Shown here: positions 7,884 to 59,699 of the stretch, piece after piece
How the letters are laid out: every line of letters begins with the position of its first letter
Position numbering within the stretch: the stretch's first letter is position 1
Source: Streptomyces sp. TSRI0107
GTDB taxonomy: Bacteria > Actinomycetota > Actinomycetes > Streptomycetales > Streptomycetaceae
NCBI RefSeq assembly: GCF_001905845.1
Contig: NZ_LIVZ01000003.1
Location: 558,001-622,000 of the forward strand
DNA: 64,000 nucleotides
Direction: 5' to 3'
The notes under the pieces: model-generated
Databases searched by the model: none
Told to the model about the DNA's origin: nothing
The model's input: only the letters and a program-made list of their open reading frames with translations
Program-made: the position numbers and the translations under genes

Positions 7884-9982
7884 GTCCTGCCGCTCCCCTC
7901 TCCCGTGAACGGCGCCGTCCCGTCGGCCGCCACCCGTACCGCGCCGTCGGCCCCGACGCCGACGCGCACGCGGCTGCCGGGCACGGGCCGGTGCTCCAGC
8001 AGATGGCGGACGACCGCCGACCGCACCTGTTCCAGCTCGTTGCGGATCTGCCGACCGCCGTACGCCTGGTGCTCGGGGTCCGCCATCCGCTCGGTGATCC
8101 ACGGGTGCAGGGTCGCGGTGTCGGGGACCAGCTCGACGCGATGGCGTTCGCGGACCGACTCGGAGAGCTGCGCGAGCAGCCGGTCGGCGATCCTGACCAC
8201 GTGCTCGTGGCGCAGCATGTCGAAGACGACCACGCCCGGCTTGAGCCGTCCGTAGATCTCCGGCCTGCCGATCTGCCGGAACTTGTCCTCCACGGCGCGG
8301 GTGAAGTGCGCCTGCAGCTCGGCGTAGGACAGGTCGTCGTCGCGTTCCTCCAGCAGGCTCTGCAGCGCCTCGGCGCCGGTGTTGGAGGTGAAGATGATCA
8401 GGCACTGGGAGAAGTAGGCCGTCTGGCCGCGGCCGTCGGTGAGGCGGCCGTCCTCCAGCACCTGGAGGAACTTGTCCAGCACCTTGGGGTGGGCCTTCTC
8501 GATCTCGTCGAAGAGCAGCACGCTGAACGGCCGCTCCTGCACCCGCCGGGTCAGTTCGCCGCCCTGCTCGTGGCCGATGTAGCCGGGTGGCGCGCCGGCC
8601 AGCCGTTCCGCCGCGTGCTCCTGCTGGTACTCGCTCATGTCGAAGCGGGCGTAGGCGCTCTGGTCGCCGAACATCAACTCGGCGACGGCCTTGGCGAGTT
8701 CGGTCTTGCCGACGCCGGTGGGTCCCACGAAGAAGAACGCTCCTCGGGGCCGGGCGGTCCCGGAGTTGCCGAAGTCGACGCCGACGAACGCGGACTGCAG
8801 CGCGGACGCCACGGCGTCGACGGCCGTGGCCTGGCCGACCACCCGGGTGCCGAGCACGTCGGCGGCGCGGGCGACGGTGTCCCGGTCGAGCTGGGTCCAC
8901 GGGTCGACACTCACGTTGAGCCGGTGCAGTTCGAGCAGCTTGTCCGGCTTCTGCAGGGGGGCGTTGCGCAGCCACGAGGTCCTGGACAGGGAGTCGATGT
9001 CCCAGCCCGCCATGCCGTCGGTGGCACCGACGAGCCGTTCGAGGTCGGCGCGGGTGGCGTCCTGGGCCCCGTTGAAGTGGTGCTGCAGCCAGGTCAGCCA
9101 CAGGCGCCGTTCGCTGGGGTCGGGCGGGCCGATGTGCAGGGCGGCGATCCGCGGGTCCTCCAGGTGGAACCAGCCGGGCAGCCGCCCGACGTCACCGACG
9201 GCGCACAGGACGGCGTTGCGGGCGTGCGGGGGCCGGCCGACGGCGGTGCGCGGGGTGACGGCGTCCGTCATGGCGGCGCGCAGCCGCAGATAGCCGAGCT
9301 GCGACTCGGGCTGGCCGGGCGGCAGCTGGTGGTCGACGTCCTCGAAGACGAAGGCGGTGGCCGCGTCGGGTGAGGCGACCAGGCGCTGCACGGTGGCGAC
9401 GACGTCGTCGAAGGTCCTGGGCCGCCCCGACCGCCGTGGCGCGAACAGCCGCTCCCGGCCGCGCTGCCGCTCGTCGGCGCGCCTGGAGGACGCCGAGGCC
9501 GGCCGGTCGCCACCGGCCGGCGCGTCACCGGCGGGCCCGCCACCGGACGGCGCGCTCCCTCCCTCGCCGGTTCGCTCACCGGCGTCGTCACCGGCCCCTT
9601 CCCCCGCCGCACCGCCCGCGGTCTCACGCGGCCGTTCCTCCCGAAGCCGGTCGAAGCGTTCCGCGTGGCCCGGCAGCGGGAAGGTGAGCCCGTCGACCGG
9701 GTCCCACCAGCCGACGACCTCCGCGCCGCGCAGTTCGAGCAGTCCGGCGACCACCTGCCGGAAGGAGGCGGGCCGGTCGCGGAACCACCAGCGGTCCCTG
9801 ATCTGCCCGTTGAGGATCACCTGGCGTCCGCGCCGCAGCTCCCAGCCGAGGGACACCGCCCACAGCGGCATCATGCCGTCCGCGGCGACCGGCTGCCCGT
9901 CCCCGCCCGTGCCCTCGCGCCGCTCGGGCGGCGGGGCCGACGGGGTGCCGTGCTGCGGTTTCGCCCATTCGACGGTGCTCAC
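7880..9982 (-). CDS. ClpB/ClpA-type AAA+ ATPase
   Basis: 700 aa from a GTG start that overlaps the preceding stop (GTGA). The C-terminal half is a canonical Clp-family second AAA module: Walker A GPTGVGKTE at about 418-426, the ARFDMSEYQ block, Walker B LLFDEIEKAHP at about 487-497, sensor-like LIIFTSNTG, and a ClpB small-domain tail at about 590-690. The N-terminal half is unusual: a WAVSLGWELRRG segment, a Glu/Gly/Ala-rich linker (about 120-180), and a degenerate NTPase-like region (FVFEDVDHQLP) without a P-loop. Only one active ATPase module is therefore expected. It may remodel a complex within the operon, perhaps with the Hsp70-like protein, as ClpB does with DnaK. Confidence 0.85.
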   Translation of the reverse strand: MSTVEWAKPQHGTPSAPPPERREGTGGDGQPVAADGMMPLWAVSLGWELRRGRQVILNGQIRDRWWFRDRPASFRQVVAGLLELRGAEVVGWWDPVDGLTFPLPGHAERFDRLREERPRETAGGAAGEGAGDDAGERTGEGGSAPSGGGPAGDAPAGGDRPASASSRRADERQRGRERLFAPRRSGRPRTFDDVVATVQRLVASPDAATAFVFEDVDHQLPPGQPESQLGYLRLRAAMTDAVTPRTAVGRPPHARNAVLCAVGDVGRLPGWFHLEDPRIAALHIGPPDPSERRLWLTWLQHHFNGAQDATRADLERLVGATDGMAGWDIDSLSRTSWLRNAPLQKPDKLLELHRLNVSVDPWTQLDRDTVARAADVLGTRVVGQATAVDAVASALQSAFVGVDFGNSGTARPRGAFFFVGPTGVGKTELAKAVAELMFGDQSAYARFDMSEYQQEHAAERLAGAPPGYIGHEQGGELTRRVQERPFSVLLFDEIEKAHPKVLDKFLQVLEDGRLTDGRGQTAYFSQCLIIFTSNTGAEALQSLLEERDDDLSYAELQAHFTRAVEDKFRQIGRPEIYGRLKPGVVVFDMLRHEHVVRIADRLLAQLSESVRERHRVELVPDTATLHPWITERMADPEHQAYGGRQIRNELEQVRSAVVRHLLEHRPVPGSRVRVGVGADGAVRVAADGTAPFTGEGSGRT

Positions 9983-53383: not shown

Positions 53384-56167
53384 TTGATACGTGCCCGAAT
53401 AACGTGGGCCGCCGCCCTCGCGGCGGTGACACTGGCGGGTGTGACGCCCGCCGTGGCGCAGGCCCGTCCGCAGCCGGCCGGCGCCGCCGTCACGGCGACG
53501 GGTGACGGCGCGGACGAACTGCCGCCCGGCTGGCGGATCATCGCCACCGACGAGGGGAACGCCCTCGAATGGCGCGCGCCGCGGCGCGTCCCGCCGGGCG
53601 ACGCCCGCGTGGAGTTCCGCACCGACGGCGGACTGGTGGGCGTACCGACACCGGACGAGGACGGGCGTACCTTTCGGCTGCCCCTGGAGGAGTCCCGGCC
53701 GGTCGAGTTGACGGGCCTTCAGGTGGTGGCGGGCGGCCGCCGGCTTGACCGGCCGTCCGGCGCGTCGGACCGGCCGGACGCGTCCGCCCCGCGTGCCCCG
53801 CAGCTCCCTCCCCGGCTGCCCGCGGGCGCTGTCGACCCGGGCAAGCCGGGCCCGTTCGCCACGGTCACCGGCGAGTACGCCCTCGACTCGATCCGGCTGC
53901 CCGGCTACAAGGCGCCGATCGAGATGCGGGGCGTGGTCGTGGCCCCGAAGGGAGCTACCGGCAAGCGTCCCCTCGCCCTCTTCCTGCACGGCCGGCACGC
54001 CACCTGTTACGTGCCCGGCCAGGGCGAGGACCAGACGACGATCGACTGGCCCTGCGCCGCCGGCGCCAAGCCGATCCCGAGCCACCGCGGCTACCTGCGG
54101 GACCAGAAGCTGCTCGCCTCCCAGGGCTATGTGACGGTCTCCGTCTCCGCCAACGGAGTCAACGGCCAGGACGCCGAGGTGGAGGACGCGGGCGCGCAGG
54201 CCCGTTCGTCGCTGGTGCGCAAGCATCTGGCGCGCTGGGCGGACTGGTCCGCCAAGCCGTCCACCGCGCCGGAGGCCGTGCGCAAGGCCCCGAAGGCCGA
54301 CCTGTCCCGGGTGCTGCTGGTCGGCCACTCGCGCGGCGGTGAGGGCGTGAACCGGGCCGCCATGGACTCCCTCTACCCGCCGCCGCCCGCCCAGGACGGC
54401 AACGTGGGGCGGGCCCGCTGGACCGTGCGCGGCACCGTGCTCATCGGCCCGACCGTCTTCGGCCAGAACCCCGTGCCCGACGTGCCGTCGCTGACGATCC
54501 TGCCGGGCTGCGACGGTGACGTCTCCGACCTCCAGGGCCAGGTGTACGTCGACGGCACCCGTGGCGTGAGCAGCGGCAAGGCCCTGCACAGCGCGGTCCA
54601 CATCACGGGCGCCAACCACAACTTCTTCAACAGCGAGTGGACGCCGGGCGAGGCGAAGGCGCCCGCGAGCGACGACTTCTGGGACGACCCCGAGGACCGG
54701 GACCCGGTGTGCTCCGCCGGCACCGCCACCCGTCTCACCGCCCAGCAGCAGCACCGCGCCGGCGCCACCTACATCGCCGCCGCCGCGCGGCTGTTCGTCG
54801 CCGGTGACGACCGGGTGCGCGAGCTGGTGGACGGCACCGGCCGCCGGGCCCCCTCGGCGGATCCCGCGCGCGTCCTGACCCACGCGGTCGGCGCGGGCCG
54901 GGGCGCCGGCTTCCTGCCCGACGGCTCGGTGAAGGTGACCGGCGGACGGCTGTGCAACGCGGTCGACACGGACGAGCGGACCGCCTGCCTGGGCGAGAAC
55001 GTGTCCGGTTCGTCGCCGCACTTCGCGCGCTGGTGGCCGGAGCGCGAGGAGGGGCGGCGCGCCGTCGCCCTGAAGTGGTCCGCGCCGGACACACCGGCCC
55101 GGGTCCGGCCCGCCGAGCCCGTCTCCCTCAAGGGGGCGAAGAGCCTGGCGCTGCGTGTCATCGTGCCGCCCAACAGCAGTGGCACACGGCTCGACGTCTC
55201 CGTCACCGACGCGTCCGGCAAGCGCGCCACCCTCGGCACCGTCCGGGCGGACGGGCTGCCGGGCAGCGAGCGCACCGCCTCCTACTGGGCGCAGGAGCTG
55301 CGCGTCCCGCTCACCGCGGCCGTCCGCGCGGGTCTCGACCTGTCCAAGGTCGGCGCGCTTGAGCTGACGCCGCGTTCGCGGTCCGGCAAGGCCTGGCTGA
55401 TGGACGCCCACGCGTGGAAGCCGGGCACGCCCGCCGTGCGCGCGGCGAGCCTGAGCCGGGTCGACATCGGCCGCGTCACGGTCGACGAGGGCGACTCGGG
55501 CGAGCGCACCTACCAGGTGCCGGTCCGGGTCTCCGGAAAGGGCGGCGGCGCGGTCCGGCTGTACGTCGTGGACCCGGACACCGGGGCGACCCGGCATCGC
55601 CTCGTCACCATGCGTCCCGGGCACCCCGGCACGGACGTGACGGTGAAGGTGACGGGCAACGAGCGCTACGCCTGGGACATCACCCACAACCTGCTCGCGA
55701 AGGCGGTCCGCGGCACGGTCGTCGGCTCGTACTCCGGTGGTGTCACCGTCCGCAACGACGACCCGATGCCCGAGGTCAGCGTGACGCCGGCCGCCGGCGA
55801 GGTCACCGAGGGACAGCCGCTGCGCTGGCGGATCTCGCTGTCCGCGCCCGCCGACGTACCGCTGGCGTCCCCGCTGAGCGTGGCACCGGCCGGCGACCGA
55901 CCCGAGCTGTCCACCCGGGACGTCGACCCGGAGTGGCTGCGCGACATGGTCGGCGAGGTGCCCGACGGCGAAGTGCCGCTGTCCGAACTGGACTACTTCT
56001 CCCTGTGGGCCCCGGTGCCGGCCGGTGAGCTGAGCGCGGAGGTGGCGGTGCCCACGGTCCGCGACCGGGTCGCCGAGCCCACGGAGTACGTGGTCTTCCA
56101 GCCCACCGACATGGAGGGCGAGCCGCACGGCCCGGCCGTGACAGGCGCGGTCCGCGACGCGTCGTAA
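53384..56167 (+). CDS. Large secreted alpha/beta hydrolase
   Basis: 927 aa. The start is a TTG at 53384 with GAGGAGAGG just upstream; no ATG or GTG is available in frame near the RBS. A signal peptide covers about 1-27 (ending AVAQA). The hydrolase fold lies within about 160-560, with HGRHATC as an oxyanion-loop candidate and the nucleophile elbow GHSRGG with Ser316; a late NHNFF motif probably holds the catalytic His. Further beta-rich domains follow (about 560-927), including a Calx-beta-like segment (VTVDEGDSGERTYQVPVRVSG). The substrate is unknown, perhaps an ester or polymer. The first codons include two rare ATA codons. Confidence 0.82.
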   Translation: MIRARITWAAALAAVTLAGVTPAVAQARPQPAGAAVTATGDGADELPPGWRIIATDEGNALEWRAPRRVPPGDARVEFRTDGGLVGVPTPDEDGRTFRLPLEESRPVELTGLQVVAGGRRLDRPSGASDRPDASAPRAPQLPPRLPAGAVDPGKPGPFATVTGEYALDSIRLPGYKAPIEMRGVVVAPKGATGKRPLALFLHGRHATCYVPGQGEDQTTIDWPCAAGAKPIPSHRGYLRDQKLLASQGYVTVSVSANGVNGQDAEVEDAGAQARSSLVRKHLARWADWSAKPSTAPEAVRKAPKADLSRVLLVGHSRGGEGVNRAAMDSLYPPPPAQDGNVGRARWTVRGTVLIGPTVFGQNPVPDVPSLTILPGCDGDVSDLQGQVYVDGTRGVSSGKALHSAVHITGANHNFFNSEWTPGEAKAPASDDFWDDPEDRDPVCSAGTATRLTAQQQHRAGATYIAAAARLFVAGDDRVRELVDGTGRRAPSADPARVLTHAVGAGRGAGFLPDGSVKVTGGRLCNAVDTDERTACLGENVSGSSPHFARWWPEREEGRRAVALKWSAPDTPARVRPAEPVSLKGAKSLALRVIVPPNSSGTRLDVSVTDASGKRATLGTVRADGLPGSERTASYWAQELRVPLTAAVRAGLDLSKVGALELTPRSRSGKAWLMDAHAWKPGTPAVRAASLSRVDIGRVTVDEGDSGERTYQVPVRVSGKGGGAVRLYVVDPDTGATRHRLVTMRPGHPGTDVTVKVTGNERYAWDITHNLLAKAVRGTVVGSYSGGVTVRNDDPMPEVSVTPAAGEVTEGQPLRWRISLSAPADVPLASPLSVAPAGDRPELSTRDVDPEWLRDMVGEVPDGEVPLSELDYFSLWAPVPAGELSAEVAVPTVRDRVAEPTEYVVFQPTDMEGEPHGPAVTGAVRDAS

Positions 56168-56189
56168 CTCCCCTTCGGAGTCCCGCACT

Positions 56190-56226
56190 CGGGCCCCGTA
56201 CCCCTGCCCGGCGGGGGTGCGGGGCC
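56190..56226 (+). terminator. Terminator after the secreted hydrolase
   Basis: GGGCCCCGTACCCC (56190-56203) pairs with GGGGTGCGGGGCCC (56213-56226) over 14 bp (one G-T pair) with a 9-nt loop. Confidence 0.8.
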
Positions 56227-56325
56227 CTCTGGCGGACGCGCGTAGAGCTCGGGCATCATCTCCCTGCACCGCCTTGCACAGTCACCCCACCGGTAGACAC
56301 GACTCAGCGCAGGGAAGGGGTCCGT

Positions 56326-56847
56326 ATGAAGGCTCGCAAGGCCGTCACGGGCAAGCTCCGCTCGATCCTCACCGCTCTCACCCTCCTCGTCGCCCCCGGC
56401 CTCGTCGTGGTCGGCGGCGCCGGTGAGGCGTTCGCCGTCACCAAGATCAGTCACGCCACCGCGACCTCCATGTTCCGCGAGGTCGGCATCACCTGGTCGT
56501 CGTCGGGCGGCTGTTCCGACCGCAACAACCCGACCTGTACGTCCTTCGAGCAGCTGAACCTCGCCACCGCCCAGGGCGCCCAGACCCTGAAGCGGGCCAG
56601 CGGATGCGCGCTGAACATCACCGGCGGCACGGAGACCGGTCACGCGTCCGGCACGTACTCGCACTGGAACGGCTACAAGCTCGACTACAGCAAGTACACC
56701 TGCCTCGGGAACTACATCAAGAACAACTTCACCTACATCGGCGTGCGCGGCGACGGCGCCCCGCAGTGGCGGTCCGGCTCCGGCAACATCTACGCCGACG
56801 AGGGCAACCACTGGGACGTCCTGTACTACAACTGCGGCGGCTGCTGA
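56326..56847 (+). CDS. Secreted M15-like peptidase candidate
   Basis: 173 aa with GGAAGGGG 8 nt before the ATG. A signal peptide (about 1-37) is followed by a domain with a TGGTETGHASGTYSHWNGYKLD block (His106, His113, Asp120) and NHWDV (His162). The spacing His-x6-Asp and a late His-Trp recalls the zinc ligands of M15 D-Ala-D-Ala or phage-endolysin type peptidases. Six cysteines suggest disulphides. Cell-wall cleavage is the likely role, but the family match is from pattern only. Confidence 0.65.
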   Translation: MKARKAVTGKLRSILTALTLLVAPGLVVVGGAGEAFAVTKISHATATSMFREVGITWSSSGGCSDRNNPTCTSFEQLNLATAQGAQTLKRASGCALNITGGTETGHASGTYSHWNGYKLDYSKYTCLGNYIKNNFTYIGVRGDGAPQWRSGSGNIYADEGNHWDVLYYNCGGC

Positions 56848-56961
56848 GCCCGGACGGCAGGCCCGTGATCACCCCGTGAAGGCGGGGGCTATTGTCTGCA
56901 CGTCAGCCACACATGGGGGGCTGACCTGTGTGGATGCTGTGCGGGAGGGGTGGTTCGTCCT

Positions 56962-57840
56962 ATGGGGAAGAAGATCGAGGAACTCCAGGTGGAGATCGAC
57001 GAGCTGGCGTTGTCACTCGTCGGGTGGCAGGTCGACGACGTTCGCGCGCGCCTGGTGACGCAGAGTTTCGACGACACCCACTTCCAGGAGATCGCCGTCT
57101 CGGGCACGGCCCGGTTCCTCGCGGAGGACTGGACGGACCGCTTCTCCCGCGGCGAGGCCGACGACTACCCGCCCACGCTCCTGCTCGGGGTGAGCCCCGT
57201 GGACCGGCCGGAGGCCGTCAGTTACACGCACGCCCTGCTGGAGACGATCCGGAAGGCGGGCAAGCGGCCGGTGCGGTTCTCGCACTCGAGCGACACCTGG
57301 GAGTGCTCGAAGCCGGTCAGGCCCGAGCAGATCCGGTTCCAGGTGACGTCCTTCGACCTGGCGGACACCAACCTCGACCTGGGATGGCCGACCGGGAAGA
57401 CCAAGCCGCTGCCGGTCGAGGTGATCGACGAGACGGCCCACGAGGCGGTACGGCTGAAGCCGGCCGTCTGCGACGCGGCCGTCGTCGGCAAGAAGCGGGA
57501 CGCCTCGGTGCAGGTCCGGCTCGGCGGCTTCGCCGAGTTCGGGTCCGCCCAGGACCTGTGGAGCGTGCTCGCGGCCACCGAGCCGTGGCGCGACGAGGAC
57601 GACCGGGAGGAAGCGTTCGAGACGCCGTTGCCGGGCGTCGTCGTGGAGGTCCTCGACGACACCGGCTTCCTCCTCGACAAGCGGGACTCCTACCTCGGCG
57701 GCTTCGTGCCCGTCGCGGAAGGCGGCCGGCTGCCCGCGCGGCAGCCGCGCTGGGTCGCCCAGTACTCGTTCGGCGTGCACGACCTGGCCGGTGACCCGGC
57801 GCGTGTCGTGGTGCGGCTCCTGGACGCGGAGGACCTGTGA
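56962..57840 (+). CDS. Hypothetical protein paired with the sacsin-like ATPase gene
   Basis: 292 aa from ATG 56962 with GGAGGGG about 11 nt upstream. I do not recognise a family. The N-terminal ~25 residues form a helical, possibly coiled-coil segment (KKIEELQVEIDELALSLVGW), followed by a mostly beta-rich body (TARFLAEDW, VRFSHSSDTWEC, PARVVVRLLD). It has no signal or membrane segment. Its TGA overlaps the start of the next gene (GTGA), so the two are made together; it is presumably the sensor, cofactor or antagonist of the ATPase. Confidence 0.7.
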   Translation: MGKKIEELQVEIDELALSLVGWQVDDVRARLVTQSFDDTHFQEIAVSGTARFLAEDWTDRFSRGEADDYPPTLLLGVSPVDRPEAVSYTHALLETIRKAGKRPVRFSHSSDTWECSKPVRPEQIRFQVTSFDLADTNLDLGWPTGKTKPLPVEVIDETAHEAVRLKPAVCDAAVVGKKRDASVQVRLGGFAEFGSAQDLWSVLAATEPWRDEDDREEAFETPLPGVVVEVLDDTGFLLDKRDSYLGGFVPVAEGGRLPARQPRWVAQYSFGVHDLAGDPARVVVRLLDAEDL

Positions 57841-59672
57841 CCGACCTGATCGGCGAGGTCGCCGCGCTGCAGCGGACCCTCGTGGCCGAACACGGGCAGG
57901 CTCCGGGGCTGTTCCGGGAGATCGCCCGCATGGAGGAGCTGCTCGCCGACACCTACCGCGACCGGGTGCCGTACGAGTTGCTGCAGAACTCCGACGACGC
58001 CGGCTCGACGACGGTGGTGGTGGAGGACCTGGGGGACGGCCGGTTCCGGTGGAGCAACGACGGCCGGCCGCTGGACGCCGCCGACGTGGAAGCCCTGTGC
58101 CGGAGCGCCAACTCGACCAAGACCCGGGGCGGTGACTCGATCGGCTACCGCGGCATCGGCTTCAAGTCGCTCGCCGCGATCGCCGCGCGCATCGAGGTCC
58201 GGTCCGCCGGTGTCCGTTTCGCCTTCGACCGGGCGACGGCGGCCGCGCTGCTCGGCACGTCGGCCGAGGACGCGGTGCCGCTGATCCGGATCCCGGCCGA
58301 GGTGGGCCCGGACGCCCCCGTCGACGGGGTGGCCTTCACCGTCAGGTACCGGCCCGACGCCGCGGGCGCGGGCGTGCCGGGGGCCGTCGACCCGCTCAGC
58401 GCGCTGTTCCTGCGGCATGTGACCGAGATCCGCACACGGATGGCGGGCGGGCGCCAGGACATCCGGATCGAGCGGGGCGCGTCCCGGGTCGTGCTCCGTC
58501 TCGGCGAAGAGGCGGCGGCCTTCGCGCTGCTGCGGCACGGGGCCGCGACCGTCGCCGTGCCGCTCGACGCGCGCGCCCTGGCCATGACGGGCGTCCGGGG
58601 GCGGCTGGCCTGCTTCCTGCCGCTGCAGGACGACGTCGGGCTGCCGGTGATCGTCTCGGGTGACGTCCTGACCGATCCGTCCCGGACGCACGCGGTCACG
58701 GCGGACGCCTCGACCCGTACGGTCCTCGCCGACGCGGCCCGGGCGATCGCCGCGGGGCTCCGCTCGCCCGGCGACCCGGTGTTCGACCGGCTGTGGCAGC
58801 TGGTCCTGGAGGGCGAGGACCTGCGGGCCATGATGGTCTCGGGCCACGCGTCCGCGGCCAAGCTGTTCGTGACCGCCCTGCGTGCGGAGATGACCGCGCG
58901 GCGCCCGCAGTTCGCCCACTCGTCGCTGCCGCTGACACCGGACGACGTGGCCGTGCTCTTCCCGGGCGGCGCTCCCCGGGCGCTGTACGAGCCCGGCAAC
59001 CAGGCCGCCGCGCGGGCGCTGAAGGCGGTGCTGGGCCTGCCCGCCCTCGACTTCGGCACCGCGCTGGAGCGCACGGACCCGTCCCGCCTCTCGGAGGAGC
59101 TGCGGGCCGGCCTCGGGGACCACTTCCGCGAACTCGCCCGTACCCATGGCCGGAAACTCACCGCGGCGGAGAGCCGGCTGGTGGCGGAAGCCGAGCCGCG
59201 GCGGACGGTGGAGACCCCGGCACCGGCCGCCGACGCCGTCCGGGTCACCAAGGCCGCCGCCCCGGCCGACGACTCTCTGGGGTCGGTCCTCAAGCGCTGG
59301 CGGGCGGCGGAGGTCGCGGCGATGGAGTACCTCAACCGGCTCGGCTGGAACCTGCGTGACGTCAGCGCGCAGAACGTGGGGTACGACCTGGAGGGGACGG
59401 ACGCCCGCGGTGCGTCCGTCCGTATCGAGGTGAAGAAGGTGGACCGGCCCGACGCGCGGTTCGCCATGACCAACAACGAGATGTCGCTCATGCTGACGCA
59501 GCCGGGCGGCTATCTGCTCGCGCTCGTCGTCGGCGACGGCCGCCACGCGCGCCTGATGCTGCTCGACCCGTCCCGGGACGACCTGCCCAAGGAGCGCGTC
59601 TGCCGCCGCTGGGACTGGGAGTTCACCGACTGGTCCCGGTTCGCGGTGCCGGTCGACACCGGTACCATGTAG
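57837..59672 (+). CDS. Sacsin/Hsp90-type (GHKL) ATPase with C-terminal DUF3883 domain
   Basis: 611 aa from GTG 57837. The N-terminal Bergerat fold has ELLQNSDDAG with the Mg-binding Asn51, SNDGRPLD at 73-80, and the lid loop GYRGIGFKS at 103-111, as in the sacsin-repeat ATPases. The C-terminus (about 505-600) is a DUF3883 domain: NRLGWNLRDVSAQNVGYDLEG followed by IEVKK, the form of a restriction-endonuclease-like (PD-(D/E)xK) core. Such a combination is found in predicted phage-defence proteins. With the preceding unknown gene it forms a two-gene unit. Confidence 0.82.
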   Translation: MTDLIGEVAALQRTLVAEHGQAPGLFREIARMEELLADTYRDRVPYELLQNSDDAGSTTVVVEDLGDGRFRWSNDGRPLDAADVEALCRSANSTKTRGGDSIGYRGIGFKSLAAIAARIEVRSAGVRFAFDRATAAALLGTSAEDAVPLIRIPAEVGPDAPVDGVAFTVRYRPDAAGAGVPGAVDPLSALFLRHVTEIRTRMAGGRQDIRIERGASRVVLRLGEEAAAFALLRHGAATVAVPLDARALAMTGVRGRLACFLPLQDDVGLPVIVSGDVLTDPSRTHAVTADASTRTVLADAARAIAAGLRSPGDPVFDRLWQLVLEGEDLRAMMVSGHASAAKLFVTALRAEMTARRPQFAHSSLPLTPDDVAVLFPGGAPRALYEPGNQAAARALKAVLGLPALDFGTALERTDPSRLSEELRAGLGDHFRELARTHGRKLTAAESRLVAEAEPRRTVETPAPAADAVRVTKAAAPADDSLGSVLKRWRAAEVAAMEYLNRLGWNLRDVSAQNVGYDLEGTDARGASVRIEVKKVDRPDARFAMTNNEMSLMLTQPGGYLLALVVGDGRHARLMLLDPSRDDLPKERVCRRWDWEFTDWSRFAVPVDTGTM

Positions 59673-59699
59673 CGGAAACACATTTCCGCATTACGGAAA
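59672..59699. promoter_or_regulatory. Interlocking inverted repeats before the urea transporter gene
   Basis: GCGGAAA-CACA-TTTCCGC (59672-59689) is a perfect 7-bp hairpin or palindrome, and TTTCCG-CATTA-CGGAAA (59683-59699) is a second one sharing its right arm. It lies directly after the DUF3883 gene stop and 33-60 nt before the transporter start. It may be an operator with three half-sites or a short terminator. Confidence 0.6.

Follow-up and report, generated by a model that had tools for sequence, protein, structure and literature searches.

A GHKL ATPase–NOV_C protein and its linked small partner: a candidate two-gene anti-phage module from Streptomyces

A gene pair of Streptomyces sp. 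TSRI0107 is probably a horizontally transferred module directed against phages or other mobile elements, in which a small protein, A, would act as the regulator and a larger protein, B, as an ATP-gated nuclease. The pair lies in a window of 64,000 nucleotides (the whole stretch of DNA analysed here) from a genome of 8.74 Mb, and its closest named relatives are in Streptomyces. The direct basis for this reading is the gene pair itself, the motifs and predicted folds of its products, the linkage of B to A and to other small partners, a defence neighbourhood across the B family, a patchy spread, and signs of decay.

The gene pair and its proteins

Both genes are on the forward strand, and the following features are referred to throughout.

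56962..57840, forward strand: gene A, 292 aa, ATG start; predicted two-domain beta-sandwich partner protein (type P1, see below)
57837..57840, forward strand: GTGA, where the start codon of B lies on the stop codon of A
57837..59672, forward strand: gene B, 611 aa, GTG start; GHKL ATPase–NOV_C (DUF3883) protein
57894..58472, forward strand: sacsin/Hsp90-type ATP-binding domain, B residues 20–212 (E47, N51, D54, GYRGIGFKS at 103–111)
58473..59048, forward strand: transducer/middle region of Hsp90-GyrB-MutL type, B residues 213–404 (conserved TDPSR motif at 279–283)
59310..59555, forward strand: NOV_C/DUF3883 domain, B residues 492–573 (E492, D517, E531-x-K533, N547-E548)

The initial annotation had described two genes sharing a GTGA overlap, and both the genes and the overlap are as it described. 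Ribosome-binding-like sequences precede each gene: GGGAGGGG at about 56943, upstream of A, and GGAGG at about 57826, upstream of B. Because the latter lies within A, it fits coupled translation. The GTGA overlap is identical in three other intact Streptomyces copies, and an overlap of the same kind recurs in distant genera. Comparison of intact Streptomyces copies indicates purifying selection on both genes (e.g., window versus L002: dN 0.18 and dS 0.51 for A, dN 0.14 and dS 0.60 for B). Against L002, L003 and L004, respectively, dN/dS is about 0.35, 0.37 and 0.60 for A and about 0.24, 0.25 and 0.23 for B; A evolves faster than B in all three comparisons. A terminator-like hairpin (window 56872–56887) lies between the pair and the preceding gene, which encodes a 173-aa protein. 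Given this hairpin, the pair may have its own transcript.

B carries a sacsin-type ATPase region and a C-terminal NOV_C domain. It matches the NF047352 model of the sacsin N-terminal ATP-binding domain at 66.7 bits (curated cut-off 50) and Pfam NOV_C/DUF3883 (PF13020) at 41.7 bits (gathering cut-off 22.1). The Hsp90-like motifs attributed to B from the letters alone are at the places given for them, with N51 at residue 51 and GYRGIGFKS at 103–111. An alignment of 51 relatives shows E47, Q50, N51, D53, D54, N74, G76, and G103–K110 of the ATPase to be invariant, as are the nuclease-type residues E492, G515, D517, E531, K533, N547, and E548. The TDPSR motif of the middle region is likewise invariant except at D280. 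The GHKL and PD-(D/E)xK residue sets are both complete in B and near-invariant across 51–63 relatives, in which the NOV_C catalytic-type residues are conserved at 97–100%. The suggestion of a nuclease-like C-terminus thus stands, with E492, D517, E531, and K533 kept in nearly all of these relatives.

The AlphaFold2 model of B is confident (mean pLDDT 89), with a low-confidence linker (residues 458–476) between the ATPase part and the NOV_C domain. Residues 20–404 of the model align to Hsp90, TRAP1, and GyrB (Z 13–15), and sacsin SR1 and MORC4 align over shorter ranges within this segment (also Z 13–15). By sequence profile, sacsin SR1 structures are the sole solved relatives of B. Fold searches with the B model returned no direct match for the NOV_C domain; the ATPase part filled the results, so the support for a nuclease comes from profile and motif and not from a structural match. 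DUF3883 has been described as a novel REase domain (PMC3710099). This description and the conserved motif together suggest that the NOV_C domain of B may cut nucleic acid.

Protein A was initially called unrecognised, and searches of Pfam, NCBIfam, PADLOC, and PDB sequences give no match for it. Its predicted model, built from nine sequences, is confident (pLDDT 91, pTM 0.86), and the secondary structure of the model suggests two beta-sandwich domains (residues about 1–160 and 161–292). The second domain has a weak likeness to Ig-like domains from GH2 enzymes and elsewhere (Z up to 5), which may be a common arrangement and nothing more. Foldseek gave no PDB match to the A model below E 1e-3. 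We assign A no named fold and claim no specific relative, since the best VIA-align Z is 5. Viral relatives of the A fold were also rejected: five viral models fell under 1e-3, but their TM-scores are below 0.3.

Linkage, partner types, and mobility

Homologous pairs in the same gene order occur in other Streptomyces and in Mycobacterium, Actinomadura, Nocardia, Rhodococcus, Tomitella, and Brachybacterium. The intact pair is rare among the 199 Streptomyces genomes searched: A occurs in four, beside B in all four, and is absent from the other 195. A fifth occurrence of B in this set is a remnant. Conservation of the pair had been set beforehand as a test of the initial annotation, and it is found. 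A profile search of 11 genomes places A next to B wherever B is intact (10 actinobacterial genomes) and outside the pair only once, as an additional copy close downstream of B in Nocardia vaccinii. This extra A-type gene (7953–8837 of locus L013) is on the opposite strand, directly after B. In Actinomadura (L012), A is split across two frames.

The wider B family comprises 74 loci and spans Actinobacteria, Bacteroidetes, Proteobacteria, Cyanobacteria, Firmicutes, Verrucomicrobia, a Phycisphaerales bacterium, and a Methanoregula archaeon. Partners were counted over 72 loci, and in 64 of these a small partner of one of four types lies next to B.

P1 partner: the A type, a predicted two-domain beta-sandwich; Actinobacteria
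P2 partner: a 110-aa beta-rich domain, often inside a 230–270-aa protein; many phyla
P3 partner: helical-looking, about 210 aa; also plasmid-borne in Planococcus
P4 partner: downstream of B, about 153 aa, weak DUF4352 similarity

The commonest arrangement of partner and B is a 4-nt overlap (19 cases), and two partner copies are present at 15 of the 72 loci. Partners may be upstream of B, downstream, or on the opposite strand, but adjacency to B is constant; this persistence of adjacency through shifts of gene order argues for a joint function. P2 matches, found in 18 genomes, are all beside B, and one P2 partner has weak DUF5067 similarity. At a Rhodocyclaceae locus (L077, 2823–4022), a P2-type partner downstream of B is fused to ankyrin repeats.

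Partner types cluster by clade on the B tree, with 15 changes over 11 labels versus 31.8 in shuffles; three Streptomyces rows labelled ‘none’ in this count lay outside the partner scan, yet carry A. Distances among partners correlate with those among their B proteins (Mantel r 0.89, 0 of 2000), with r at 0.39 when divergent pairs only are used. We considered and rejected a single homologous family of P1–P4 partners. Comparison of the A and P2 profiles is not significant (hhalign 0.05–0.15, probability about 1%), and the partner types are therefore taken as analogous. The sole sequence bridge between types is a weak BLAST match (1.5e-4) between the A fragment of L018 and the P2 partner of L081.

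The Streptomyces copies occupy unrelated places, in neighbourhoods that have no genes in common except at one site shared by genomes G154 and G031. There, G154 has the intact pair, and the related S. buecherae genome G031 has a C-terminal remnant of B without A (L115), indicating that the system is being lost at this site. The window copy lies in a stretch that is missing at the corresponding site of a near relative, G017.

56167..59693, no strand: stretch of 3.5 kb absent at the matching site of G017; holds the A–B pair and the gene for the 173-aa secreted-looking protein

At that site in G017, 126 bp link the two flanks in place of these 3.5 kb. The 173-aa protein (window 56326–56847) contains cysteines and has no Pfam match. 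Of 150 Streptomyces genomes, 88 carry its gene, which in G017 is on another contig. As this gene is common elsewhere in the genus, the 3.5-kb stretch is either a composite insert or the product of a rearrangement at this site. We saw no mobile-element ends, target duplications, repeats, or integrase around the 3.5-kb insert. In Planococcus lenghuensis, a mobilizable plasmid of 329 kb carries a helical-partner pair (L111, 8334–11010), with an IS66 transposase nearby. None of 50,697 phage records contains an A–B pair. The viral contigs searched hold one full-length B relative (L084, with a helical partner) and weaker ATPase-only matches, and no relatives of A or P2.

Defence neighbourhoods and known systems

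Genes near B-family members are strongly associated with defence. The 88 nearest sizeable genes of 36 loci, a homology-derived sample, match 222 PADLOC families, versus 3 for 88 control genes taken from one distant region each in 18 of the same genomes (1e-8); one protein can match many PADLOC families, so the two counts are not made of independent matches, and the contrast is large still. The matches include BrxL, PglZ, DpdE/DrmD-like helicases, Mokosh, and type I, IIG, and IV restriction enzymes. For example, the Tomitella pair adjoins a type IIG enzyme and the Dietzia pair a type IV enzyme, and in the vicinity of the Streptomyces relatives lie a PNP-type effector, a PDC-S27 candidate, and an nSTAND-WD40 protein. 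No defence genes were found among the window genes scanned; the neighbours of the window copy are ordinary (carboxylase, glycosidase-like, esterase-like, urea-transporter, and lipoate-ligase genes). The expected proximity to known defence genes therefore holds across the B family and is not seen among the genes scanned around the window copy.

Several known proteins share parts of this architecture. One is VcSduA, a GHKL-type Shedu protein of Vibrio cholerae with tested phage defence, which fuses a GHKL ATPase to a PD-(D/E)xK nuclease and whose authors propose that the ATPase controls the nuclease (PMC12137116). Like B, VcSduA has its GHKL ATPase at the N-terminus and its PD-(D/E)xK-type nuclease at the C-terminus, and it is rare (PMC12137116). 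However, its nuclease is DUF4263, not NOV_C/DUF3883, and it is described as a single protein, whereas B has an obligate second gene. Assignment of B to Shedu (SduA) was rejected, as no DUF4263 or Shedu model is among its Pfam and PADLOC matches. Tiamat (TmtA) shares a sacsin-like N-terminal ATPase region with B and gives its best PADLOC score (7e-29). The TmtA models are nonetheless 1302–1782 positions long, and the best stretch covers about positions 18–151 of 1370, the N-terminal tenth of the best model, so B was not assigned to Tiamat either. We know of no partner gene for Tiamat.

MORC and paraMORC proteins of restriction-modification operons resemble B in placing a GHKL-S5 ATPase with nucleases in defence operons, but they occur mostly with superfamily II helicases (PMC2292703); what stays constant beside B is a small partner, either beta-sandwich or helical. 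Other DUF3883/NOV_C proteins (e.g., SNF2-DUF3883 in RM operons (PMC3710099) and plant NO VEIN) belong to the same C-terminal family as B, but have another ATPase and another partner. Human and lizard sacsin SR1 (5V44–5V47) are the closest solved sequence relatives of the B ATPase domain. Sacsin itself, in contrast, is a giant chaperone-like protein with a HEPN domain and no nuclease pair.

The pair does not correspond to a known PADLOC two-gene system, since A has no match there and B has partial TmtA matches only. Neither a system with the A–B architecture nor the partner families are named in PADLOC, Pfam, or NCBIfam, and a sacsin–DUF3883 pair was absent from the literature searched, mostly open rather than subscription papers. 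Coupling of a GHKL ATPase to a nuclease in defence is a known idea; what appears to be new is the use of NOV_C together with swappable partners in trans.

Proposed mechanism, alternatives, and significance

A defence role of the system is well supported by context, and we hold it to be likely. Across many bacteria, and in an archaeon, relatives with interchangeable partners have anti-virus genes around them, and the system is thus probably an undescribed anti-phage system. We conjecture that it works as follows; the dimerisation of B, its gating by ATP, its cleavage of DNA, the sensing role of A, and protection against phage are all inferred. Hsp90, MutL, and gyrase dimerise and close on ATP. 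By analogy, B would form a dimer and work as an ATP-driven GHKL/sacsin-type clamp, the opening and closing of which would control the C-terminal PD-(D/E)xK-type nuclease by positioning or releasing it. The partner is obligate, faster-evolving, and clade-specific, which makes it a natural candidate for a regulator (sensor, adaptor, or inhibitor). A would be a dedicated cytosolic regulator, translated in a coupled way just ahead of B. It most likely recognises an infection cue, keeps B inactive, or both, and would release or direct the nuclease onto DNA, either that of the phage or the cell’s own as abortive infection. If the system is defensive, we would place the A-type partner as sensor or adaptor slightly above the partner as inhibitor.

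The small gene in first position, translational coupling, and strict linkage would also suit a toxin–antitoxin-like pair, in which A neutralises a self-toxic B nuclease and the main role is maintenance or stress growth control in place of phage sensing. Occurrence of a pair on a plasmid and persistence of just a B remnant in G031 point the same way. We nevertheless regard such a role as unlikely: the B family clusters strongly with dedicated defence systems, a large multi-domain ATP-dependent effector is atypical of a toxin of this kind, and ankyrin-fused or duplicated partners fit recognition better. Toxin–antitoxin and defence roles can, however, overlap. It is less probable still that B serves stress responses or repair by remodelling proteins or acting on DNA topology in an ATP-dependent way, its NOV_C domain being a DNA-binding or structural element and not a nuclease. 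The ATPase part is homologous to Hsp90, sacsin, GyrB, and MutL, and the window copy has ordinary chromosomal genes around it; both points are consistent with this account, but the near-complete conservation of the NOV_C catalytic-type residues argues against it, and a rare, mobile distribution with defence neighbours is ill-suited to housekeeping. Finally, although A belongs to no known family, an accidental adjacency in one lineage without joint function is refuted by conservation and has almost no claim left, as all 10 genomes carry A solely in the company of B, the 195 other Streptomyces genomes searched lack A, and the same kind of overlap recurs in distant genera.

Beyond the A–B pair as a defence module, the data may, more tentatively, reflect a widespread, unnamed family of ATP-gated GHKL–NOV_C nuclease effectors, in which the effector is retained while a small sensor or inhibitor (P1 to P4) is swapped by clade, so that a single killing component would be coupled in trans to different sensors of infection. 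If the defence reading is true, a system found across many bacterial phyla and in an archaeon has been missed, or seen only as a Tiamat fragment, in the catalogue searched. It would then offer a compact case for studying the gating of a nuclease by a GHKL (Hsp90/MutL-like) clamp, and the way in which interchangeable small partners distinguish infection from normal life. It would also bear on the origin of the sacsin-type ATPase module.
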